A program made the position numbers and the translations under genes. Under the pieces are notes generated by a model that made no database searches, had not been told where the DNA came from, and saw nothing but the letters and a program-made list of their open reading frames with translations. Positions 1 to 10,305 of a stretch of DNA of 10,305 nt are shown here, one piece after another (within the stretch, counting starts at the first letter, position 1; each line of letters begins with the position of its first letter). Origin of the DNA: Lachnospiraceae bacterium UBA4292 (lineage in GTDB: Bacteria; Bacillota; Clostridia; Lachnospirales; Lachnospiraceae); NCBI GenBank assembly GCA_002395865.1, contig DGVE01000188.1:1-10305 (forward strand). Direction: 5' to 3'.

Positions 1-170
1 AGATCGTATTTATCCTTGAAATAGAGATAGAAGGTGCCCTTTGCGACCCCCGCCTTCTGCGCGATATCCGCTATGGAGGTCTTCGAAAAGCCCTGAGTCG
101 TGAAGAGCTCAAAGGCCGTGTGAAGAAGACTGTTCATTTTCTGCAGCTTGTTTTCAGCTATCTTTCCCAT
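1..170 (-). CDS. TetR/AcrR-family transcriptional repressor, N-terminal part (runs off left edge)
   Basis: The reverse strand read from the ATG at 168-170 gives 56 residues before the window ends. Residues about 28-55 (SIADIAQKAGVAKGTFYLYF) are the classic TetR helix-turn-helix, with the Gly-Thr-Phe-Tyr-Xaa-Tyr-Phe end of the recognition helix. A GGGGGAT ribosome site lies just upstream of the ATG, and a good promoter sits at 216-244. Only the DNA-binding domain is visible, so the ligand-binding and dimer domain is unknown. The gene is divergent from the MMPL exporter operon, and three matching palindromes lie between them. By analogy with other TetR-pump pairs it probably represses the pump and is released by the pump's substrate. 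The family call is firm; the role is inferred from position. Confidence 0.93.
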   Translation of the reverse strand, partial: MGKIAENKLQKMNSLLHTAFELFTTQGFSKTSIADIAQKAGVAKGTFYLYFKDKYD

Positions 171-215
171 ACGATCCCCCGTTTATTTTCCAAGTCGGAA
201 CCTTATACATTCTCC

Positions 216-244
216 ATGATATATCTCTGAAATTCACCTGTCAA
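216..244 (-). promoter_or_regulatory. Promoter of the TetR-type regulator gene
   Basis: On the minus strand a perfect -35 TTGACA (239-244) is followed by exactly 17 bases and -10 TATCAT (216-221), about 45 bases before the regulator ATG. The nearest operator-like palindrome (263-275) lies about 18 bases upstream of this -35 box. Autoregulation is therefore possible but would not work by directly covering the promoter elements. Confidence 0.75.
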
Positions 245-262
245 TCTGTTTTTTGCTAAAAA

Positions 263-275
263 TGACCGAAAGTCA
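263..275. promoter_or_regulatory. Operator-like palindrome 1 (TGACCGAAAGTCA)
   Basis: A 13-bp inverted repeat TGAC-N5-GTCA in the middle of the divergent tetR/mmpL region, embedded in AT-rich sequence. The same half-sites recur at 306-318 and 352-364, which makes chance unlikely. It is probably a dimer binding site for the neighbouring TetR protein. It could serve both divergent promoters. Confidence 0.75.
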
Positions 276-304
276 AATTTTATAAAAAATTTACGGATAA
301 AGTA

Positions 305-333
305 TTGACCAATGGTCAGTTTAGTGGTAGAGT
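305..333 (+). promoter_or_regulatory. Promoter of the MMPL exporter operon
   Basis: -35 TTGACC (305-310), a 17-base spacer and -10 TAGAGT (328-333), preceded by the extended -10 dinucleotide TG at 325-326. Transcription should begin near 340. Operator palindrome 2 overlaps the -35 box, and palindrome 3 would lie just inside the transcript, the usual layout of a TetR-repressed promoter. Confidence 0.75.
306..318. promoter_or_regulatory. Operator-like palindrome 2 (TGACCAATGGTCA), overlaps exporter -35
   Basis: This is the most symmetrical of the three sites, with 6-bp arms TGACCA/TGGTCA around a central A. It shares five bases with the exporter -35 box TTGACC at 305-310, so a bound repressor would block RNA polymerase directly. 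It is the likely primary repression site. Confidence 0.82.
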
Positions 334-351
334 ACGCACCGATGAAAGAAA

Positions 352-364
352 TGACCGATAGTCA
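352..364. promoter_or_regulatory. Operator-like palindrome 3 (TGACCGATAGTCA)
   Basis: A third TGAC-N5-GTCA site (arms extend to ATGAC/GTCAT), centred about 46 bp from site 2 and 30 bases before the exporter start codon. It falls a little downstream of the predicted transcription start, where a bound dimer could act as a roadblock. Site centres are near 269, 312 and 358, about four helical turns apart. Confidence 0.75.
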
Positions 365-383
365 TATTTATCGGTGAAAGGCA

Positions 384-389
384 AGGTGG
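384..389 (+). promoter_or_regulatory. Ribosome binding site that selects the ATG at 395
   Basis: AGGTGG five bases before ATG 395. The in-frame upstream GTG at 374 has no purine-rich site before it, which favours the shorter 700-residue product. Confidence 0.6.
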
Positions 390-394
390 ATGTA

Positions 395-2497
395 ATGAAA
401 AACTTCGGAAGAAACGTGGTCAGGTTCAGGATCCCCATCCTGATCATCTGTCTTTTGCTTCTCATCCCTTCCGCGATTGGGTACGTAAAAACGCGTGTCA
501 ACTACGACATACTGTATTACCTGCCCGATGAGATAGAGACGATGAAGGGACAGGATGTGCTCCTGAAAGACTTCGGAAAGGGCGCATACGCGCTGTTCAT
601 ATGTGAGAATATGAACTACCGCGATGTGGCCAAGGTGAAGAAAAACATAGAAGCTGTCGAGCATGTGGCCGAGGTGCTGTGGTATGACTCGGTGGCGGAT
701 GTTACATTTCCGCTTGAAATGCTCCCGGACAAGGTGAGGGATTTCTTCAACAGCGAACATGCCACAATGATGGCGATATTCTTCGACACCACCACATCGG
801 CAGATGAGACGATGAGGGCGGTGGACGATATAAGGCAGATGGCGGGAAAGCAGTGCTTTCTTAGCGGCATGAGCGCCATCGTGACCGATACCAAAAACAT
901 GGTGGAGGATGAGCTGTTCACCTATGTGGCCATAGCCGCGGGACTTGCGCTCCTCGTCATGGCGATCACGATGGACTCGTTTTTGATACCGATACTGTTT
1001 CTTTTGAGCATCGGTATGGCGATAGTCTACAACATGGGCACGAACTTCTTAAAGGGTGAGATATCCTTCATCACGATGGCGCTCGCGGCGGTGCTGCAGC
1101 TGGCTGTGACCATGGATTACTCCATATTCCTCTATGAGAGCTACAAGGAGCAGAAGAAGCTGTGTGAGGACAGAAGGGAGGCCATGGCAAAAGCGATAAA
1201 TGCCACACTGAACTCTGTCGTGGGTTCTTCGCTCACCACGGTCGCCGGCTTCGTTGCTCTTTGCTTCATGAGCTTCACGCTCGGAGCCGATCTCGGTATA
1301 GTGATGGCCAAGGGCGTGGTGATAGGCGTCATCTGCTGTGTGACACTGCTTCCGTCCATGATCCTCACATTTGACAGGCTGATAGAAAAAACGTCCCACA
1401 GAACGCTGAATCTTAAGTTCGACAGATTGTCTAAGGCGGTCCTTAAGCTCTATCCGGTATTTGCGGTGCTGATGGTCCTGCTTTGGATACCGTCCCTGTA
1501 CGGCTACAAAAACATGGATGTGTACTACAAGCTCGACGCTTCGCTGCCGTCATATCTTCCGAGCGTGACGGCGAATCAGAAGCTCTCGGAGAACTTCAGG
1601 ACAAACACCATACACATGGTGCTCGTGGACAGCGGACTTGACAAGAAGACTGTGAGCGCCATGAGTGAGGAGCTGGAGAGAACTCCGGGCGTCGTAAATG
1701 TGCTTGGCCTTGACGCGTTAACGGGTGTCAGGGTACCGGATGAGATCATACCCGAACAGCTGAGCAGCAAGCTTGTCTCCAAAAATGAGCAGCTCTTACT
1801 GATCACCAGCGAGTACCAGACCGCCACCGACGAGGTGAACGCGCAGGTCGATACGCTCTCGTCCATAGTGAAGCGTTACGATCAGGGAGGCATGGTCATC
1901 GGTGAGGCAGCCGCGACCAAGGATCTCATAAGCATTACCGATCACGATTTTGCGGTCGTGAACGCGGTCTCCATAGGAATGATCTTCATTCTTATTGCTT
2001 TAGTTCTTAAGAGCGCGGTCCTTCCCATACTTCTGGTATTTCTTATAGAGCTGGCAATATATATCAACCTCGGCCTGTGCTTCTTCACGGGCAGCACGCA
2101 GTCGTTTATCGCTTCGGTGGTCATCGGAACCATACAGTTGGGAGCCACAGTCGATTACGCGATACTCATGACCAACCGCTACAAGACCGAGAGGATAGCC
2201 GGTATGGACAAGAAGGAGGCGGCACTCACCGCGCTGTGCGCATCGGCACCCTCGATAATCACGAGCGCACTCGGATTTTTCGCGGCGACCATAGGCGTGG
2301 GCATCTACTCGGATGTCGATCTTATCAGCTCGCTGTGCATACTTATGGGGCGCGGCGCGATAATAAGCATGGTACTCGTGCTGCTGTGTCTGCCATCGCT
2401 TTACATGCTATTTGACGGATTGATCATCAGGACGACAAAGGGCATGGAGGAGTGCGTGAGTGAAGCAAGGTCACACTTAAGAACCAGGAAGGTCTAA
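395..2497 (+). CDS. MMPL/RND-family membrane exporter
   Basis: A 700-residue integral membrane protein with the two-fold RND layout. It has one helix at the N-terminus (about 10-29), a large outside loop (about 30-170), helices 2-6, a pseudo-repeat start at helix 7 (about 352-371), a second outside loop (about 372-518) and helices 8-12. The paired Asp-Tyr motifs in helices 4 and 10 (TMDYSIFL, Asp241; TVDYAILM, Asp587) match the proton-relay pairs known from mycobacterial MmpL3, so proton-driven export is likely. MMPL proteins usually move lipids or other hydrophobic compounds; the substrate here cannot be read from sequence. The ATG at 395 has an AGGTGG site; an in-frame GTG at 374 would add seven residues. 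It is followed after 25 bases by the heptad-repeat lipoprotein, and is probably controlled by the divergent TetR protein through operators at 306-318 and 352-364. Confidence 0.93.
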   Translation: MKNFGRNVVRFRIPILIICLLLLIPSAIGYVKTRVNYDILYYLPDEIETMKGQDVLLKDFGKGAYALFICENMNYRDVAKVKKNIEAVEHVAEVLWYDSVADVTFPLEMLPDKVRDFFNSEHATMMAIFFDTTTSADETMRAVDDIRQMAGKQCFLSGMSAIVTDTKNMVEDELFTYVAIAAGLALLVMAITMDSFLIPILFLLSIGMAIVYNMGTNFLKGEISFITMALAAVLQLAVTMDYSIFLYESYKEQKKLCEDRREAMAKAINATLNSVVGSSLTTVAGFVALCFMSFTLGADLGIVMAKGVVIGVICCVTLLPSMILTFDRLIEKTSHRTLNLKFDRLSKAVLKLYPVFAVLMVLLWIPSLYGYKNMDVYYKLDASLPSYLPSVTANQKLSENFRTNTIHMVLVDSGLDKKTVSAMSEELERTPGVVNVLGLDALTGVRVPDEIIPEQLSSKLVSKNEQLLLITSEYQTATDEVNAQVDTLSSIVKRYDQGGMVIGEAAATKDLISITDHDFAVVNAVSIGMIFILIALVLKSAVLPILLVFLIELAIYINLGLCFFTGSTQSFIASVVIGTIQLGATVDYAILMTNRYKTERIAGMDKKEAALTALCASAPSIITSALGFFAATIGVGIYSDVDLISSLCILMGRGAIISMVLVLLCLPSLYMLFDGLIIRTTKGMEECVSEARSHLRTRKV

Positions 2498-2522
2498 ATA
2501 TATACGAAAAGAGGCATATACG

Positions 2523-4811
2523 ATGAACAGAAATACAAAGAGAGTAAACATGTTGATGAAAAAGAGTGCGGTATCGGCCATGGCCGGCGCTGTGGCACTG
2601 TTAAACCTTGCGGGCTGCTCCGCATCATATTACGGGGGCGATACGGCGCCCGCAGCGAATATAACAGCCGATACACAGGCAGCCGTTTCGGAGCCCGCGG
2701 TTAATTATCACGGAGGAAGCGACGGGAAGCGCGAGACTGTTTATATGATCGCTGACGGAAGCGGTAATGTCACCGATACCATCGTGAGCGCATGGCTCTC
2801 GAATCCATCAGAGGCGGAGCAGATAGTCGACAGCTGCGAGCTGGAGAATGTAGAGAACTTAAAGGGTGACGAGACCTTTACAAAAAATGAAAACGGCGAT
2901 CTGGTGTGGAACGCAGGCGGAAGGGACATATACTACAGGGGAACTACGGATAAGCAGGCTCCCGTATCAGTCAAGATCACATACACACTGGACGGTGAGG
3001 AGATAGAACCTGCGCAGCTTGCCGGCAGAAGCGGTCATCTCGTGATGACATTTACATATACCAACAACCTTTCAAAGACCGTTAAGTCCGAGGATGGCGA
3101 ATATACTGTCTATCAGCCGTTTACGGTAGTGTCCGGAGCGCTGTTCGACAACACCGGGGTGAGCAATATCGAAGTCACCAACGGCCGCGCGATAAATGAC
3201 GGCTCGAGGACGGCGGTGGTCGGCGTGGCATTTCCGGGCCTCTCAGAGAGTCTGGGGCTGGGCAGCCTGCAGGATGAGGACATAAGTAAGATCGAGATAC
3301 CCGAGAGCGTGACGATAAGCGCGGATGTGGTTGATTTTTCGCTCATGGCCACGATCACGGTCGAGGACAACAGTCTGTTAAAGAGCGCGTTAAATGACAG
3401 CGAGGGCTTCAACCTGGACGATCTCAGGGACAGCTTAAATGAGCTGACGGATGCCGCAACGCAGCTGGTGGACGGAGCTTCGGATGTGGCTGACGGCGCG
3501 CAGGCACTTGCTGACGGTGCCGCAGAGCTTTCGGATGGCGCTGTAACTCTTTCGGACGGAGCCGCAGCTGCCGCAGATGGTGCTTCTAAGGTAAATGACG
3601 GCGCGCAGGCGCTCGCAGCCGGTGCAAAGGATGCGAAGAACGGCTCTGCCGCGCTTGCGGATGGCGCTGCTAAGGCGGATGAGGGCGCGAAGACGCTCAA
3701 TGCAGGCATATCCTCGGCATATGAAGGAGCTCAGTCACTCGATGCGGGAATAGCTCAGGTAAGGGACGGCGCACAGGCGCTTGACGCGGGACTTTCTCAA
3801 CTTCAGCAGAGCATGGCTCCGATGTCGGACGGTATCGTAAGCCTCGCGGGCGGCGCGGCATCCATAGCTGCAGGCGCGAAGAGCGGTGATGCACAGGCAC
3901 CCGGTATCTACGAGGCGGCTTCGGCCATAAAGGACGGGCTTACTGCGGCTTCCGGAGCGCTGACTGACAGCACATCACAGGCCTGCACGGCTCTGGGGGC
4001 GGCTTCACAGTACGAGCAGGCGGCCATAGAGCAGGTAACGGCTCTGGCTCAGACGGGTGCCATAACACCCGAGCAGGCTCAGGCGATAATCACCAATATC
4101 ACTACGGGCAAGATGATATCCGACGGCGTGAACGAAAAGCTCGCCGCAACAGATATGACTACTCAGTTTGCGGGCGCGCTCGGAGGACTCGATGCGATAA
4201 TGAACGGCGCACAGGCCATAAATGCGGGCGCGCAGGATATGGGTGCGGGCCTTGGTGCTCTCGGTGACGGTGCAGCGGCGCTCGGCGCGGGAGTCGGACA
4301 GTTAAAGGACGGTGCGGCAGCGCTTTCTGACGGCAGCGTAAAGCTCGCTGAGGGCTCGGGTGCTCTGGTATCCGGAATGTCACAGCTCGAGAGCGGTTCG
4401 GCTTCGCTTTCTGATGGTGTCTCAGCGCTCTCACAGGGCGCTGCGGCTCTGGATACGGGTCTCGGAACTCTCTCTGACGGCGCGGATACTCTTGCAAACG
4501 GTACGAAGGAGCTCTCTGACGGTGTAAATGCGCTCTCTGACGGAGCGGATCAGCTCAAGGACGGTACGGCTCAGTTATCTGACGGAGCAGTACAGCTCGC
4601 CGACGGTGCGGCGCAGCTCTCTGACGGAATGGATGAGTTCAATGAGAAGGCCATAAGCAGGCTGGTATCATTTGCGGAGAATGATGCTTTCGCACTCGCA
4701 GACCGCGTGAAGGCGATATCGGATTTCGCGGGCGAATATCACTCATTTGCGGCCGGTGACGAGGACACGGATGTGAGATTCATCATCCGGACCGAGGGTA
4801 TCGGTGAATAA
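2523..4811 (+). CDS. Heptad-repeat lipoprotein (YhgE/Pip-like outer domain), exporter partner
   Basis: A 762-residue protein. The N-terminus has a positive start, a hydrophobic stretch and a lipobox Leu-Ala-Gly-Cys (about residues 29-32), so it should be lipidated and anchored outside the membrane. Residues about 65-290 form a beta-rich domain (start KRETVYMIADGSGNVTDTIV) like the ones preceding heptad repeats in many clostridial YhgE/Pip-type proteins. Residues 317-452 and 561-707 are two arrays of the X-X-X-Leu-X-X-Gly heptad family (TIGR03057 type), split by 108 non-repeat residues. The short C-terminal tail has no membrane helix, unlike YhgE proteins with a transporter-like end. An AAGAGG site precedes ATG 2523; Met10 and Met12 are alternative starts. 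It lies in an operon 25 bases after the MMPL exporter and ends in a strong terminator. A likely role is an extracellular stalk or adaptor for the exporter; that role is inference. Confidence 0.9.
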   Translation: MNRNTKRVNMLMKKSAVSAMAGAVALLNLAGCSASYYGGDTAPAANITADTQAAVSEPAVNYHGGSDGKRETVYMIADGSGNVTDTIVSAWLSNPSEAEQIVDSCELENVENLKGDETFTKNENGDLVWNAGGRDIYYRGTTDKQAPVSVKITYTLDGEEIEPAQLAGRSGHLVMTFTYTNNLSKTVKSEDGEYTVYQPFTVVSGALFDNTGVSNIEVTNGRAINDGSRTAVVGVAFPGLSESLGLGSLQDEDISKIEIPESVTISADVVDFSLMATITVEDNSLLKSALNDSEGFNLDDLRDSLNELTDAATQLVDGASDVADGAQALADGAAELSDGAVTLSDGAAAAADGASKVNDGAQALAAGAKDAKNGSAALADGAAKADEGAKTLNAGISSAYEGAQSLDAGIAQVRDGAQALDAGLSQLQQSMAPMSDGIVSLAGGAASIAAGAKSGDAQAPGIYEAASAIKDGLTAASGALTDSTSQACTALGAASQYEQAAIEQVTALAQTGAITPEQAQAIITNITTGKMISDGVNEKLAATDMTTQFAGALGGLDAIMNGAQAINAGAQDMGAGLGALGDGAAALGAGVGQLKDGAAALSDGSVKLAEGSGALVSGMSQLESGSASLSDGVSALSQGAAALDTGLGTLSDGADTLANGTKELSDGVNALSDGADQLKDGTAQLSDGAVQLADGAAQLSDGMDEFNEKAISRLVSFAENDAFALADRVKAISDFAGEYHSFAAGDEDTDVRFIIRTEGIGE
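3471..3878 (+). repeat. Heptad array 1 inside the lipoprotein gene (20 units)
   Basis: Twenty in-phase 21-base units encode residues 317-452, mostly (D/A/N/E)-G-A-x-x-L-x. One unit near residue 429 (QSMAPMS) has lost the Gly. The bases differ from unit to unit while the protein pattern is kept, which points to an old array under selection rather than fresh slippage. Confidence 0.9.
4203..4643 (+). repeat. Heptad array 2 inside the lipoprotein gene (21 units)
   Basis: Twenty-one in-phase 21-base units encode residues 561-707, with the pattern (D/A/S/E)-G-x-x-x-L-x. The last six or so units are the most regular (DGAVQLA, DGAAQLS). The length nearly equals array 1, as expected if the two pair as arms of one long helical hairpin. 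Confidence 0.9.
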
Positions 4812-4831
4812 GACTTGATTTAAATAAAACT

Positions 4832-4863
4832 GCCGGGTCGGAATATGCGACCCGGTGTTTTTT
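4832..4863 (+). terminator. Rho-independent terminator of the exporter operon
   Basis: An 8-bp GC-rich stem CCGGGTCG/CGACCCGG (4833-4840 with 4848-4855) with a 7-base loop, followed by TGTTTTTT. It starts 21 bases after the lipoprotein stop and separates the exporter operon from the patatin operon. Confidence 0.93.
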
Positions 4864-4864
4864 A

Positions 4865-4893
4865 TTGATTTTTTGAAGATTTTTGTTTATAAT
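4865..4893 (+). promoter_or_regulatory. Promoter of the patatin-peptidase operon
   Basis: -35 TTGATT (4865-4870), a 17-base spacer and a perfect -10 TATAAT (4888-4893), placed directly after the terminator T-run. The predicted start near 4900 leaves a leader of only about 25 bases. Confidence 0.75.
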
Positions 4894-4909
4894 CCTCTGC
4901 AGATATATG

Positions 4910-4917
4910 AGGAGGAG
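4910..4917 (+). promoter_or_regulatory. Ribosome binding site that selects the ATG at 4925
   Basis: AGGAGGAG seven bases before ATG 4925. The in-frame TTG at 4883 would lie inside the predicted promoter and upstream of the expected transcript, so it is not a credible start. Confidence 0.85.
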
Positions 4918-4924
4918 CGGTATT

Positions 4925-5773
4925 ATGAAAAAAGGACTTATACTTGAGGGCGGCGCTATGAGGGGGATGTTCACCTGCGGAGCACTTGATGTATTTATGG
5001 AGGAGGGCATTACCTTCGACGGCGCCGTGGGCGTGAGCGCGGGCGCGGTGTTCGGCTGCAATCTGAAGTCGCATCAGCCGGGCAGAGCGCTCAGATACAA
5101 CAAGATGTACTGCAACGACGACAGGTATATGAGCGTTAAGTCGCTGGTGAAGACGGGCGACCTGTACGGCGTGGATTTCTGCTACCGCGAGCTGCCCGAT
5201 GAGTTGGATGTGTTCGACAGGGAGACTTTTAAGAACGATCCCATGGAGTTCTATGTGACCTGCACGAATATCGAGACCGGCAAGGCTGTGTTCTACAAGT
5301 GCAGTGACTGTGGCGAGAGGGATATGCAGTGGATGAGAGCCTCCGCGTCTATGCCGCTGGTGTCGAGAGTCGTCGAGGTGGACGGCTACAAGCTCCTCGA
5401 CGGAGGCGTGGCGGATTCCATACCCATCAGGTTTTTCGAGAAGAAGGGCTATGACAAAAATGTGGTCATTCTCACACAGCCCCTCGGCTATGTGAAGGAG
5501 AGGTCGTCCATGTTCAGACTGATGGCGGCCAGATACAGAAAATACCCGAACCTTATCCGTGCGATAGGCGCAAGGCATATAAGATACAACCTCACCACTG
5601 CGTACATAGAGGAGCAGGAGAAGGCCGGAAAGCTCTTTGTCATAAGACCCGAGGAGGCTCTGCCCATAAAGAGGACGGAGAAGGATCCCGCGGTGCTCCA
5701 GCGTGTGTACGACATGGGCAGGGAGGTCGTGACAAAGAGGCTTGACGAACTTAAAAGATATCTGGAGGAGTGA
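4925..5773 (+). CDS. Patatin-like phospholipase/acyl hydrolase
   Basis: A 282-residue cytoplasmic protein without signal peptide. It opens with the glycine-rich oxyanion loop GGAMRG (residues 9-14), followed by the nucleophile elbow Gly-Val-Ser-Ala-Gly (36-40, catalytic Ser38). The Asp-Gly-Gly motif is at 159-161 (Asp159), completing the Ser-Asp dyad of the patatin fold. Length and spacing resemble the bacterial YjjU-type subgroup of predicted esterases. Such enzymes hydrolyse acyl esters of lipids; the actual substrate is unknown. A strong AGGAGGAG site selects ATG 4925. Its TGA shares a base with the ATG of the M28 peptidase gene, so the two are almost certainly co-transcribed and translationally coupled. 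The family call is firm. Confidence 0.94.
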   Translation: MKKGLILEGGAMRGMFTCGALDVFMEEGITFDGAVGVSAGAVFGCNLKSHQPGRALRYNKMYCNDDRYMSVKSLVKTGDLYGVDFCYRELPDELDVFDRETFKNDPMEFYVTCTNIETGKAVFYKCSDCGERDMQWMRASASMPLVSRVVEVDGYKLLDGGVADSIPIRFFEKKGYDKNVVILTQPLGYVKERSSMFRLMAARYRKYPNLIRAIGARHIRYNLTTAYIEEQEKAGKLFVIRPEEALPIKRTEKDPAVLQRVYDMGREVVTKRLDELKRYLEE

Positions 5774-7131
5774 TGAAGCGTTCCTTTGGCTTTATTGCAG
5801 CACTTATCGCGGCCGCGGTGACGGCTTTTTGCACATTGCCGGCTGCGCATCATGACGGGACGGGACTTTTGGCGGTCGATGCAGCAGCCGATGATGACTA
5901 CGGCGTGAAGGCTCTCGAGTACATGGAGCACATCTCGCAGACCTATCCCGGAAGGGGGTGGAATTCGCAGACCAATAACGAGTGCTGCGAGTACTTAAAG
6001 AGCGAGATCGCCGCGATGGGTTACGATTGCAGGGCGAGATATTTCGAGATAGAGAAGAATGGTTACACATATTTCGGGGAGAATCTGGAGTTCGAGATAA
6101 AGGGTGAGAGCCCGGCCGTGATACTGGTCGGGGCGCACTATGACTGCGTGGACAACACTTCCGGCCCTGACGACAATGCCTCCGGCGTGGGCCTTCTGCT
6201 CGAGGAGGCCGCAAGGCTCGCAGGCGCGAAGGATCTTCCGTACACCGTCAGGTTCGTGCTCTTTGACTGTGAGGAGGAGGTGGCTTTAGGCAGCATCGCC
6301 TATGTCAGGGATCTGGAGGAGCACGAGAGAAGCATACTGTGCATGATCAATCTGGACAGCATCTGCGCAGGCGACTACATGTATATCTACGGCGGACATC
6401 CGGAGGCGGACGGTTCTGTGAGCCGCACATGGGCGGCGCTTCAGGCGCTTGACGCCGCAGATGCGCTCGGACTGGATATGCATTTTCATCCGGATGTAAA
6501 TGCACAGTTTCCTACGCCGTCGAAGCACACGGACAGCGACCAGCAGCCCTTCGACGCTGCGGGTGTGCCGTATATCTATTTCGAGGCATCAAACTGGAAT
6601 GGCGGCAATCATACGAATTTTTACCAGACCGCTGATCCGGACGTGGTAAACGGCAAGATGTTCCACGTGCCCGAGTATGAAAACATGGAGTTTTACAGGG
6701 CACATTTCGGGGACAGGATAGAAAAGCATCTGGCTGCGTACGGAAAGCTTCTGGACTTTCTGCTTCGCGAGATGGCGGCGGGAAGTACGGTATGCGTAGT
6801 CAGGACAGAGCCGCAGCCGCCTGAGTATACCACTACAGAGGAGCCTGCCACACAGGAGGTTACTTCGGAGTATACCACGGAGGAAGTAACTACACAGGAG
6901 GCCGCCACAGAGGAAACGACTGCGGCGGAATCCGCACAGGAGCAATCTGCCGGTGAGACGTCTGCACAGGATATGTCTGAGACCGGGCAGGAATACTATT
7001 TCGGCCGCGAGACGAAGGCTTCGAAGGAGACGGAGGACGGCGTGGGAGAGTTTCCGTTCATACCCGTGATGGCGACAGCTGCGATACTGCTCTCCATCAT
7101 GGCGGTAGTCTATGTCCTTTTGAAAAAATAA
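5773..7131 (+). CDS. Surface-anchored M28-family zinc aminopeptidase
   Basis: A 452-residue exported protein. Residues about 5-22 are a signal-type hydrophobic segment. The M28 metal and catalytic residues are present in order: His122 (GAHYD), Asp134 (DDNASG), Glu167/Glu168 (CEEEVALGS), Asp195 (NLDS) and His280 (GNHTNF). It should be a di-zinc aminopeptidase acting outside the cell. From about residue 345 to 425 comes a low-complexity stalk rich in Thr, Glu and Gln, then a single membrane helix (about 427-450) and a Lys-Lys end, tethering the enzyme by its C-terminus. The ATG at 5773 overlaps the patatin stop and has GGAGG upstream; a GTG one codon earlier is less likely. No clear terminator follows. 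The substrate is unknown; peptide scavenging is plausible. Confidence 0.93.
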   Translation: MKRSFGFIAALIAAAVTAFCTLPAAHHDGTGLLAVDAAADDDYGVKALEYMEHISQTYPGRGWNSQTNNECCEYLKSEIAAMGYDCRARYFEIEKNGYTYFGENLEFEIKGESPAVILVGAHYDCVDNTSGPDDNASGVGLLLEEAARLAGAKDLPYTVRFVLFDCEEEVALGSIAYVRDLEEHERSILCMINLDSICAGDYMYIYGGHPEADGSVSRTWAALQALDAADALGLDMHFHPDVNAQFPTPSKHTDSDQQPFDAAGVPYIYFEASNWNGGNHTNFYQTADPDVVNGKMFHVPEYENMEFYRAHFGDRIEKHLAAYGKLLDFLLREMAAGSTVCVVRTEPQPPEYTTTEEPATQEVTSEYTTEEVTTQEAATEETTAAESAQEQSAGETSAQDMSETGQEYYFGRETKASKETEDGVGEFPFIPVMATAAILLSIMAVVYVLLKK

Positions 7132-7157
7132 AACGATTCAAAAAACGAAAAAACCTC

Positions 7158-7186
7158 TTGAAAAAGTCGAACATTAGTTCTATAAT
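7158..7186 (+). promoter_or_regulatory. Promoter of the three-gene methyltransferase cluster
   Basis: -35 TTGAAA (7158-7163), a 17-base spacer and a perfect -10 TATAAT (7181-7186). Transcription is predicted to start at about 7193-7194, exactly at the foot of the hairpin at 7194-7227. Confidence 0.8.
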
Positions 7187-7193
7187 GCGTGTA

Positions 7194-7227
7194 GGATTTT
7201 TCATAGCGCTGAAAGCGCGAAAAATCC
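7194..7227 (+). promoter_or_regulatory. Predicted 5'-terminal mRNA hairpin
   Basis: A perfect 9-bp outer stem GGATTTTTC/GAAAAATCC (7194-7202 with 7219-7227), a 3-base bulge ATA, and a 5-bp inner stem GCGCT/AGCGC closed by a GAA loop. No T-run follows, so it is not a terminator. It lies where the transcript from the 7158-7186 promoter should begin. It may shield the 5' end from decay or take part in control of the GTG-initiated first gene. Its function is unproven. Confidence 0.65.
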
Positions 7228-7272
7228 GTATCATGCAATAAATTAACCCAGACTTTTTCAGGAGGGATTAGG

Positions 7273-7566
7273 GTGCCTTATATTACCGGGGCGGATACGC
7301 CCATAGACGTTATCTGCCAGCACAGCCGTGACGGCAGTATAATACCCATAAAGATCAAGCTGTCCGACGAGGACGGAGAGACCCATATCTTCAGGATAGG
7401 GTCTTACAGGGTGCTGCTTGAGAACGGTTCGCATGTGCTTCCGGGAGGTGTTCATTCCTCCGACCACATCTGGACCTTTGAGTGCAGGATATGTATTTTC
7501 GGTATGCAGAAGCAGATCTACCTGATGTACAACGCGTTCGACGGCATCTGGAGCTGCAGAGTTTAA
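7273..7566 (+). CDS. Conserved-looking 97-residue protein of unknown function
   Basis: Starts at a GTG with a very strong AGGAGG site seven bases upstream. The product is 97 residues, soluble, with no signal peptide or membrane helix. Alternating hydrophobic and polar residues (IPIKIKL, THIFRIGSYRVLL, WTFECRICIFG, IYLMYN) suggest a small all-beta fold. It opens with PYITGADTPIDVICQH and ends in a tryptophan-containing segment (GIWSCRV). I recall similar short proteins in Lachnospiraceae but cannot name a family or function. Only three bases separate its stop from the next methyltransferase ATG, which has little ribosome site of its own, so the two are probably translationally coupled. The promoter at 7158-7186 and the leader hairpin belong to this gene. 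Confidence 0.82.
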   Translation: MPYITGADTPIDVICQHSRDGSIIPIKIKLSDEDGETHIFRIGSYRVLLENGSHVLPGGVHSSDHIWTFECRICIFGMQKQIYLMYNAFDGIWSCRV

Positions 7567-7569
7567 GCG

Positions 7570-8340
7570 ATGAACAGACTGGAAGAGTATTACAACAAGT
7601 TCAATGAAAACAAGAGGCTCGATTCGCGCCACGGCAGGGTGGAGTTCACGGTCACGATGAAGTATATACACGAGTATCTGAACGAGTTCGGCGCGGGCGC
7701 GAAGGTGGCCGATATAGGCGCAGGCACGGGCAGGTATTCCATACCTTTGGCGGACGGGGGATACGATGTGACTGCTGTTGAGCCTGTCAGGTATAATCTC
7801 GGGATACTTAAGAAAAACAGCGGCAAGGTGAAGGCTTTTCAGGGCAATGCCATAAAGCTTGGGCGTCTTGGGAGCGACAGCTTCGACCTGACGCTTCTTT
7901 TCGGGCCGATGTATCATCTGCTCACGCACGGGGAGAAGCTTACGGCTCTCCTTGAGGCGAAGCGGATAACGAGGCCGGGCGGCATCATCATGGTCGCGTA
8001 CTGCATGAACGAGTACAGTGTCATAACGTACGCGTTCAAGGAGAAGCATATACTGGAATGCCTTGATGACGGGAAGCTGGACGAGGCATTTTCGGTGACG
8101 CCGAAGGACGATCTCTACGACTATGTGAGGACTGAGGAGATCGAAAGGCTGAACGCTGAGGCGGGACTTACGCGGATAAAGATCATTTCTCCGGATGGCC
8201 CGGCGAACTACATGAGGCAGGCGCTGAATGCACTGAGCGAGGAGGAGTTTGAGCAGTTCATACGCTACCAGCTCGCCACCTGCGAGAGGCGGGATCTGAT
8301 AGGTGCGGGTGCGCACACGGTGGATATTCTGAGGAAATGA
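7570..8340 (+). CDS. Class I SAM-dependent methyltransferase
   Basis: A 256-residue cytoplasmic protein of the small-molecule-type Rossmann methyltransferase group (Methyltransf_11/25-like). Motif I, Asp-Ile-Gly-Ala-Gly-Thr-Gly, lies at residues 48-54. It is followed by an acidic end of strand 2 (TAVEP), a Gly-Asn-Ala segment at the strand-3 turn, the motif SFDLTLLFGPMYHLL, and a post-motif GGIIMVAYCMNE segment. The substrate cannot be told from sequence. It begins three bases after the 97-residue gene and ends one base before the next methyltransferase, so the three form one tight unit. Codon use matches the left part of the window (AGG, ATA). A long antisense reading frame over it has no supporting signals. 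Confidence 0.92.
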   Translation: MNRLEEYYNKFNENKRLDSRHGRVEFTVTMKYIHEYLNEFGAGAKVADIGAGTGRYSIPLADGGYDVTAVEPVRYNLGILKKNSGKVKAFQGNAIKLGRLGSDSFDLTLLFGPMYHLLTHGEKLTALLEAKRITRPGGIIMVAYCMNEYSVITYAFKEKHILECLDDGKLDEAFSVTPKDDLYDYVRTEEIERLNAEAGLTRIKIISPDGPANYMRQALNALSEEEFEQFIRYQLATCERRDLIGAGAHTVDILRK

Positions 8341-8341
8341 C

Positions 8342-9502
8342 ATGGATATAAACGAAGCAATAGAAAAAATGGCGAAAGCATTGCCAAAACGGATAATACT
8401 CAGCAAGAGCGCGGGAGAGTGGAGACGCTGCGAGATCGACAGGAAGGATTTCGGGTACCAGAGGGCGCTCTACTCGCAGAAGCAGGTATTCCACAGAAAT
8501 TTCAAACCGGAAGAGCTCGTCACAGAGCTGTCGGAGCTGGTGCCGGCCGAATTCACACGGGTGAATGCGTTCACGTCAGACAGGGAGTACACGCTCATGA
8601 TATCCTCAAAGGGGAGGGTGAATCTGTCGTCACACGCCACGCAGAGCAGCGCGCAGGTCACGGGGCACAACAGGGTGAAGAATTACCTGATACCGGAGGG
8701 CGAGGCCATACCGGCGCTCGTCGATATGGGGGTGTTCACGAAGGAAGGCCGCGTCGTGAACTCGATGCAGGACAAGTTCAGGCAGATCAACCGATTCGTC
8801 GAGATGGTGAGCGAGTGCATAGAGCCCGGGACGAGGCAATTGAATATAGTGGATTTCGGCTGCGGCAAGAGCTATCTGACCTTCATTCTGTATTATTACT
8901 TCGCCGTTAAGCGGGGGATGCGGGTGAAGATCATCGGCTACGATCTGAAGGCGGACGTGGTGGAGCACTGCAGCGCCGTGGCCGAGAAGTACGGCTATGA
9001 GGGACTGCGCTTCGTCCACGCGGACGTGAGCCGGGACGCTCTCTATGGGGAGCGTGTGGACATGATCGTGACCCTCCACGCCTGCGATACGGCCACGGAC
9101 TATGCCCTGCACTACGCCATCGAAAAGGGTGCGGACTACATCTTCTCCTATCCCTGCTGTCAGCATGAAATCAACAACACCATCACTTCGCAGAACCTGA
9201 ATGTCCTCACCCGCTACGGGATTATCAAGGAACGTTTCTCCGCCCTCCTGACCGACGCCCTCCGGGCGGACCTCCTGGAGTGCTGCGGCTATGAAACCCA
9301 GGTCCTGGAATTCATCGACCTGGAGCACACACCCAAGAACATCATGATCCGCGCCTCCCTCCGTCCCGGCGGACCCAAAGCGTCTGCCGCCCGCAAAAAA
9401 GCCCTCCTCCCGGAAATCAATTCTGCCCTGAAGGAATTCCGTGTGGAACCCACCCTGTACAAACTCCTTCATTCGCGCATTTCCGGCGAAGATAACACCT
9501 GA
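8342..9502 (+). CDS. SAM-dependent methyltransferase (Methyltransf_32-like), compositionally chimeric
   Basis: A 386-residue protein. Residues about 1-165 are a family-specific N-terminal region that includes a GHNRVKNYLIPEG segment and the DKFRQINRFVEMV helix. The Rossmann methyltransferase domain follows: SAM-binding motif Asp-Phe-Gly-Cys-Gly-Lys (171-176), HACDTATDYA (246-255) and the signature Ser-Tyr-Pro-Cys-Cys-Gln-His-Glu (269-276). This motif set is that of the Methyltransf_32 type; an RNA or protein target is possible but unknown. AGGA lies six bases before the ATG, one base after the previous stop. The frame is intact and all motifs are present, yet codon choice changes abruptly near residue 170-190: ATA and AGA/AGG codons, common before, vanish after. 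The gene may be a natural recombinant or an assembly join of two homologues. Confidence 0.88.
   Translation: MDINEAIEKMAKALPKRIILSKSAGEWRRCEIDRKDFGYQRALYSQKQVFHRNFKPEELVTELSELVPAEFTRVNAFTSDREYTLMISSKGRVNLSSHATQSSAQVTGHNRVKNYLIPEGEAIPALVDMGVFTKEGRVVNSMQDKFRQINRFVEMVSECIEPGTRQLNIVDFGCGKSYLTFILYYYFAVKRGMRVKIIGYDLKADVVEHCSAVAEKYGYEGLRFVHADVSRDALYGERVDMIVTLHACDTATDYALHYAIEKGADYIFSYPCCQHEINNTITSQNLNVLTRYGIIKERFSALLTDALRADLLECCGYETQVLEFIDLEHTPKNIMIRASLRPGGPKASAARKKALLPEINSALKEFRVEPTLYKLLHSRISGEDNT
8849..8910. other. Compositional break point within the methyltransferase gene
   Basis: Counting codons by hand in the 8342-9502 frame: up to 8848, Ile is ATA 9 times of 11 and Arg is AGA/AGG 9 of 14. From 8852 on, Ile is ATC/ATT 15 of 15 and Arg is CGN 13 of 13. 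GCC, CTC, CCC and TCC also become common, and the right-edge gene keeps this style. The switch falls in the stretch encoding the SAM-binding motif, the most conserved part and hence the likeliest place for a homology-driven join. Confidence 0.75.
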
Positions 9503-9650
9503 AAGAACCATCCACAATAATCCCGATACTTAAATTCCAATACCCACTACGCCTGGCGGGAATGTGACTGCGGGACAGCACCATATGTAACGCGAAGTGT
9601 GACATTTGGTCTGTCCCTCTGTCATGTTCCCGCTCTCCGTTGCCTCCAGG

Positions 9651-9700
9651 TTGTCATTTCGACCAAAGAATCCGAAGGATTCTGCGTGGAGAAATCTCCC
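9651..9700. repeat. REP-like palindromic intergenic element
   Basis: A segment opening TTGTCATTTCGACC and closing GTGGAGAAATCTCC, with a central perfect stem AGAATCC/GGATTCT around GAA (9667-9683). The outer ATTTC and GAAAT can pair, so the whole forms an imperfect hairpin. It resembles the GTCATTTCGA...GAGAAATCT intergenic repeats scattered through many gut bacterial genomes. There is only one copy here, so the repeat call rests on recognition. Confidence 0.55.
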
Positions 9701-9749
9701 CCCACCGCAGGCGGAATAATTGTTCATTATTCATTGTTAATTGTTCATT

Positions 9750-9770
9750 TGTCATCGCAAAGCGATGACA
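9750..9770. repeat. Short perfect hairpin (9-bp stem, AAA loop)
   Basis: TGTCATCGC and GCGATGACA pair perfectly around AAA. The following bases (ACTGTCTCCTCC) are not a T-run, so it is a poor terminator on the plus strand. On the minus strand it is followed by an A/T-rich stretch (AATGAACAATTAAC) but not by a T-run either. It is more likely part of the repeat cluster in this spacer. Confidence 0.55.
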
Positions 9771-9831
9771 CTGTCTCCTCCGGAGATGTAAACCTTCAAT
9801 CAGCCGGAACACCATCTGTCCTGAGACCACA

Positions 9832-9870
9832 TTAATTCTGCATTCTTAATTCTGAATTCTGAATTATTCT
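9832..9870. repeat. AT-rich short direct repeats (AATTCTG words)
   Basis: TTAATTCTG occurs at 9832-9840 and again at 9846-9854, followed by overlapping GAATTCTG and GAATTATTC words. It directly precedes the ribosome site AGGGGAGG of the right-edge gene. Such runs are a common spacer filler in some Clostridia; no regulatory role is evident. Confidence 0.5.
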
Positions 9871-9887
9871 TAAGGGGAGGTTGTCTC

Positions 9888-10305
9888 ATGAAAGCACTCT
9901 TCATCGGCGGAACCGGAACCATCAGCATGGCCATTGTCCGGCGGCTGGCGGAAAAGACAGACTGGGAAGTCTGGCTCCTGAACCGGGGCCGGCGCGCCGC
10001 GGATGTTCCCGCGGGCGTACACACCATCACCGCGGACATCAACGACGAGCAGGCCGTGGCGGAAATCCTGAAGGATCAGTTCTTTGATACCGTCTGCGAG
10101 TTCATCGGCTTCACCAAGGACCAGGTGGAACGGGACTGGCGCCTCTTCCGCGGTAAGACGCGGCAGTACATCTACATCAGCTCCGCCTCCGCCTACCTGA
10201 AGCCGGCCGCAAGCTATGTGATCACCGAGGGCTCCACCCTGGCGAATCCCTACTGGGAGTATTCCCGGAACAAGATCGCCTGTGAGGAATTCCTGATGCG
10301 CAAGT
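9888..10305 (+). CDS. NAD(P)-dependent epimerase/reductase, extended-SDR type, N-terminal part (runs off right edge)
   Basis: ATG 9888 has a strong AGGGGAGG site seven bases upstream and stays open for 139 codons to the window edge. Residues 4-13 (LFIGGTGTIS) are the Rossmann dinucleotide-binding loop, with Ser in place of the third Gly, a variant I recall as usual in this epimerase-like group. WLLNRG (about 29-34) ends the second strand. The YISSASAY segment carries the catalytic Ser region, and Tyr125-x-x-x-Lys129 (YSRNK) is the SDR catalytic pair. The C-terminal substrate part is missing, so the sugar or other substrate is unknown. Codon use (CGG/CGC, ATC, no AGG or ATA) matches the downstream half of the preceding methyltransferase gene and differs from the rest of the window. 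Confidence 0.88.
   Translation, partial: MKALFIGGTGTISMAIVRRLAEKTDWEVWLLNRGRRAADVPAGVHTITADINDEQAVAEILKDQFFDTVCEFIGFTKDQVERDWRLFRGKTRQYIYISSASAYLKPAASYVITEGSTLANPYWEYSRNKIACEEFLMRK

Follow-up and report, generated by a model that had tools for sequence, protein, structure and literature searches.

A methyltransferase reading frame with pieces from three lineages at the right end of a Lachnospiraceae contig: a very probable metagenome assembly chimera

The window, by which we mean the whole stretch of 10,305 nucleotides analyzed here, is the complete contig C200 of genome G000 (2.11 Mb in 231 contigs; completeness 71.67%, contamination 2.24%), a profile that looks like that of a metagenome bin. 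Most of the contig is taken up by the upstream genes listed in Table 1, which match the genome in style when their codons and tetranucleotides are compared with those of other G000 contigs. The gene at 7570–8340 matches NCBI protein P0121 at 98% and P0122, a protein from a Lachnospiraceae MAG, at 79%. The long protein encoded at 2523–4811, behind the gene of an MMPL-type transporter, has many DGA-rich repeats with a spacing of 21 bases, and all of its Pfam matches fall below the curated cut-offs. None of five upstream genes of the window was matched (E 1e-8) in the stretches around the homologue of the frame in four relatives (L146–L149).

Downstream of these genes lies an intact frame of 386 residues. 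Residues 144–279 match Methyltransf_32 (PF13679) with 134.4 bits, above the Pfam cut-off of 27, and the frame has the DFGCGKSYLTF and SxPCCQHE motifs common to homologues. It differs from other members of the family in that the near-invariant V of SVPCC is replaced by Y, and in that no full-length counterpart with its combination of parts was found among the best 120 of 7994 proteins. NCBIfam has no family, and the solved structures no match, for the protein as a whole. The contig ends within a further gene, resembling epimerases. The coordinates of all features, including the four pieces (A to D) and three joins discussed below, are collected in Table 1.

Table 1. Features of the window, with the evidence by which each was delimited
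Feature	Coordinates	Strand	Basis
Piece A, upstream genes	1..8341	+	MMPL transporter-like, long repeat protein, patatin-like, M28 peptidase-like, class I methyltransferase (Pfam matches)
Open frame of Methyltransf_32 type (386 aa), made up of pieces A, B and C	8342..9502	+	ORF; PF13679; segment identities
Piece A, part within the frame (residues 1-183), native gene of the binned genome	8342..8890	+	P0002 identity; ATA/AGR-rich codons
Join 1, A to B, conserved SAM-binding motif (DFGCGKSYLTFIL)	8855..8893	+	P0002 protein; L032 exact runs
Piece B, residues ~184-270, relative of L032 and of Ruminococcaceae/Oscillospiraceae MAGs	8891..9151	+	DNA and protein identity
Join 2, B to C, conserved SxPCCQHE motif	9149..9169	+	Alignment; exact runs
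Piece C, end of the frame with the spacer beyond it, RUG111-like genome	9152..9750	+	590/599 bases identical to L022
Join 3, C to D, dispersed repeat of 35 bases with identical copies at the two source loci	9716..9750	+	Alignment to G483:C53 and G483:C18
Piece D, spacer with the first part of an epimerase-like gene that runs off the contig (9888-10305)	9716..10305	+	G483:C18; PF01370

Codon usage changes abruptly within the frame. ATA accounts for 9 of 11 Ile codons through residue 169 (base 8846) and for 0 of 15 beyond it (Fisher p = 1.8e-5), and AGA or AGG for 9 of 14 and then 0 of 13 Arg codons (Fisher p = 5.8e-4); an earlier note on this DNA had reported the switch, and its counts were reproduced exactly. 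When Ile and Arg were pooled in a change-point scan, 18 of 25 codons before the best break and 0 of 28 after it were of these kinds (p = 7.4e-9, the minimum over break points, uncorrected). The best break, near base 8885, lies at the DFGCGKSYLTF motif and bears out the placement of the switch at the SAM-binding motif. The right-edge gene, also held to be in the new style, has ATA at 0 of 11 and AGR at 0 of 11. Compared with the other long ORFs (72 in all, stop to stop, 250 codons or longer, taken from the window and from sampled G000 contigs), the break of the frame ranks first, the runner-up having a p of 5.7e-4. Homologous ORFs were scanned at 98 of 99 loci of other organisms, one locus having no qualifying ORF; their strongest break was 9.6e-5, at codon 89 of its ORF.

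Composition changes along with codon usage. The tetranucleotide profiles of 1–8850 and 8911–10305 differ (r = 0.52), with the caveat that the right-hand part is short and its profile noisier. Out of 20 sampled stretches of the genome, two that were all N and the window's own copy were omitted, and the 17 readable stretches, which come from other G000 contigs, all resemble 1–8850 more than 8911–10305.

A separate protein comparison of the parts of the frame, which the note had seen as a way to tell two sources apart, did separate them: residues 1–165 are nearest to a Lachnospiraceae protein, P0002, and later parts are nearest to other proteins. Identity to P0002, which is named Lachnospiraceae, is 160/165 (97%) over residues 1–165, 28/59 (47%) over residues 191–250 and 68/127 (54%) over residues 251–386. 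P0002 agrees with the frame up to residue 183 and departs at 184. The parentage of piece A is read from this protein. A native 3' half of the gene of A was not found elsewhere in G000 (a genome 72% complete). On the B side of join 1, the frame has 23 (8855–8877) and 8 (8879–8886) exact bases in common with L032, which is a relative of the source.

The middle of the frame points to another source. Of 118 loci compared, L032, from uncultured Clostridiales RUG166, is 91.3% identical to 8860–9169 in DNA (310 bases) and 95% identical over 85 residues; L040, L041, L048 and L049, all Ruminococcaceae or Oscillospiraceae, reach 85–87% in DNA over the same stretch. At 8855–9151, 271 of 297 bases are identical to L032, leaving 26 mismatches. 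Among the best 120 of 7994 proteins, residues 191–250 are matched best by P0003 (83%). P0002, P0004, P0005 and P0010 all fit these residues poorly (47–54%), so the middle of the frame has a third source. A closer parent of B was not found in the protein collection, where the best full-length match was 94% and one partial protein reached 95% across the greater part of the segment. Within piece B, 32 bases (9071–9102) match L022 exactly and 60 bases (9089–9148) match L032 exactly. Given these exact runs to both, and the 26 mismatches to L032 among the 297 bases, piece B may be a composite in its own right.

B gives way to C sharply, at the SxPCCQHE motif, since just 66 of 180 bases at 8891–9070 are identical to L022 and just 88 of 249 bases at 9152–9400 are identical to L032. 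The words shared at join 2 are 8–9 exact bases, as measured against the relatives L032 and L022 and not against the true parents. The codon TAT at 9149–9151 fits neither relative (GTG and GTT). It encodes residue 270, the x of SxPCCQHE; at this position 233 of the 234 homologues with the motif have V, and only the window has Y (237 proteins were examined, three of them without the motif). This Y may be a scar of join 2, or it may have been carried by the true parent of B.

The remainder of the frame and the DNA beyond it resemble one genome in two places. L022 (OMZY01000006.1, G483:C53, uncultured Clostridiales RUG111; contig of 147,591) is 98.2% identical in DNA to 9140–9750, again among 118 loci compared, and the match ends at 9750. 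In keeping with this, P0004, P0005 and P0010 are 31–47% identical to the first part of the frame and 92–93% identical to the last. Searching the class (391 genomes, E <= 1e-120) for a protein nearer to P0004 returned only matches of 50–55%, besides the window's own 61%. From 9716 to 10299 the window follows a different contig of the same RUG111 genome, G483:C18 (149,247), with 97.6% identity over 584 bases; the epimerase-like fragment is 98.6% identical to it over 139 residues of protein.

At join 3, the G483:C18 copy departs from the window to the left of 9716–9750 and the G483:C53 copy departs to the right, and both source places are interior to contigs of about 150 kb of one genome (G483). 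The 35 bases belong to an intergenic family of dispersed repeats (TAATTGTTCATTATTCATTGTTAATTGTTCATT-like), of which G483 and G486 have many partial copies. Elsewhere in G000 the repeat had no match, in a search where a short repeat within a long query could be missed; two other short matches (E 0.05 and 0.6) lie outside the repeat. By this distribution the repeat is the donor's, because many partial matches occur in G483 and none elsewhere in G000. The ordinary explanation for join 3 is a misjoin caused by the repeat.

Taken on sequence evidence, the right end of the contig is almost certainly a metagenome assembly chimera. Non-overlapping parts of the contig match different organisms (A, P0002; B, L032 at 91%; C and D, the RUG111 genome at 98%), and each relative has a different neighboring sequence: P0002 for A, L032 for B, L022 and P0004 for C, and G483:C18 for D. 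The donor tract is not in the gene order of any one donor; two sources follow A within the frame, and a jump between loci follows at the repeat. The earlier note had spoken of two genomes joined within the gene. A foreign join did emerge, and two was too few, as three lineages contribute to the frame and the joins in the contig number three. The side that the note had treated as uniformly new in style is likewise not a stretch of one genome, having further joins near 9150 and at 9716–9750. Of its two explanations, a join made by the assembly was right in kind; recombination or a domain swap gained no support beyond what the artefact explains equally well.

We infer that the window stems from a metagenome assembly and that the crossings arose during assembly or library making, not in a cell. 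The assembler would have entered the conserved SAM-binding motif along the gene of the binned Lachnospiraceae and crossed there to the homologue of a second bacterium. A second crossing, at the SxPCCQHE motif, would have led to the homologue of a third, RUG111-like, bacterium, and a third crossing inside the 35-base repeat to a distant place in the same RUG111-like genome. The frame would stay open because the first two crossings join aligned homologous codons. Crossing at short shared words is a single process that would explain all three joins and the openness of the frame, as well as why no second copy is seen and why the sequence jumps within the third genome. The isolate names of the nearest relatives of B and C are mostly from ruminant gut (goat, sheep, water buffalo), so such bacteria can share a sample; RUG itself we take to be a rumen series.

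In PMC8171044, inter-species chimeric contigs are defined by matches to different species, and chimeric nodes in multi-species assembly graphs are described as stretches evolutionarily conserved in different species. The contig resembles the inter-species chimeric metagenome contigs of de Bruijn graphs, as that paper presents them, in that its parts match different organisms and its joins lie at conserved or repeated stretches. It differs from the usual chimeric contig in that three joins fall within 900 bases and the frame is open across two of them, so that the result resembles a gene. Several points count against a chimera. The frame is open throughout, like contrasts occur at the same motif outside the window, and the nearest relative of B is only about 94–95% identical in protein. 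The search of G000 for a native 3' half of the gene of A found none, and the words shared with relatives at joins 1 and 2 are short (23 and 8–9 exact bases). In addition, PMC3901335 reports, for simulated viral and viral-bacterial data, that most chimeras formed between close relatives, and the parents here are more distant.

The alternative that survives best is a real mosaic, in which a Lachnospiraceae cell recombined at the motif with an incoming mosaic of two Clostridia, giving an in-frame domain-swapped methyltransferase; we consider this very unlikely. The open frame and the position of the joins at motif boundaries would fit it. Natural interspecific in-frame gene mosaics are known from the penicillin-binding proteins of naturally transformable bacteria, and these also have joins at conserved stretches and an open frame. 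The present case differs from them in that its parents are about 30–55% identical over most of the protein, in that its last join connects places far apart in a single donor genome, and in that the best 120 proteins hold no second copy of the mosaic. A natural origin would need three joins in less than 900 bases, one of them fusing distant RUG111-like loci at a dispersed repeat, and hence several very recent events including a rearrangement of the donor at the repeat. Pieces C and D are about 98% identical to RUG111, so the mosaic would have to be very recent; still, no copy is found among the best 120 of 7994 proteins.

The composite protein, P0001, forms a one-member cluster from a single contig. 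The next match after it, P0002, is 73% identical overall and is without the later pieces. A copy of the composite would rank at the top of the list, and its absence from the best 120 of the 7994 proteins scored therefore counts against a second copy. Nor did these 120 proteins hold the same mosaic from an independent genome or sample.

How often homologues differ in this way was gauged by a three-segment contrast, calculated for pairs reaching at least 88% in at least one segment and skipping pairs with fewer than 40 aligned residues in a segment. Among 99 aligned sequences (the window and 98 genome-locus homologues), 27 pairs reach 88% in a segment; the four that include the window have contrasts of 0.58–0.67, and the other 23 are at most 0.18, so that none of the 23 genome-locus pairs without the window is mosaic. 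Among the best 120 of 7994 proteins, a list which may favor composites as it was drawn by a composite query, 356 pairs reach 88% in a segment. Nine of these have a contrast of at least 0.45, four with the window, four with P0014 and one between P0008 and P0022. At a contrast of at least 0.35 there are 44 pairs, of which 4 involve the window and 11 involve P0014; P0022, P0014, P0019 and P0025 recur, P0120 appears three times, and 40 of these 44 pairs are least alike in the N-terminal segment. P0014 and P0007 are 51% identical before the DFGCGKSYLTF motif and 99–100% identical after it, a break at the same place as join 1.

The switch between P0014 and P0007, with the like contrasts of P0022, P0019, P0025 and P0120, would allow that swapping of N-terminal parts could occur in this family. 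It is highly improbable, in our view, that the frame is a real in-frame mosaic, formed very recently from three Clostridia that share a gut community, with motif I as a recombination hot spot; nor do we give more than slight credence to P0014, P0022, P0019, P0025 and P0120 being, along with it, further cases at about the same place. Each of these five proteins forms a cluster of one member, and their contigs measure 1.9–3.9 kb, which fits an artefact but would fit a real hot spot too; P0007 and P0008 represent 846 and 4455 members.

Chimeric library molecules, formed by template switching during amplification and not by crossings in the assembly graph, would give pieces and joins of identical appearance. 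Template switching also occurs at short words shared by homologues. Three such joins in one contig would each have to reach assembly depth, and we regard this origin as scarcely credible. Natural heterogeneity of codon usage within the gene, with no foreign DNA, is refuted by the match of pieces B, C and D to other lineages at 91–98% in DNA; weaker breaks do exist in the G000 sample and in the homologues (5.7e-4 and 9.6e-5, as given above), and the break of the frame far exceeds those of the 71 ORFs ranked with it.

With assembly chimerism as the preferred reading, 8342 to about 8890 belongs to the binned genome and about 8891 to 10305 most likely does not, and the composite methyltransferase probably exists in no cell. 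Gene order past about 8850 is unreliable, and the gene content of the genome should exclude the epimerase-like gene at 9888. An open, high-scoring methyltransferase of 386 residues in a public genome would then be a composite of three organisms, one that passes family searches and was exposed by codon usage alone. Claims of domain swaps or horizontal transfer made from single MAG contigs need a check of the parent tracts.

At least five other one-member proteins of this family on short contigs have a similar N-terminal switch, which suggests, from sequence comparison, that assemblies may go wrong repeatedly at the DFGCGKSYLTF motif (motif I). A real recombination point at motif I would look alike and is less likely. 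Two further one-member proteins, P0003 (461 residues) and P0006 (452 residues), contain the conserved VDMxVTLHACDTATDYAL region in duplicate and look like assembly loops.
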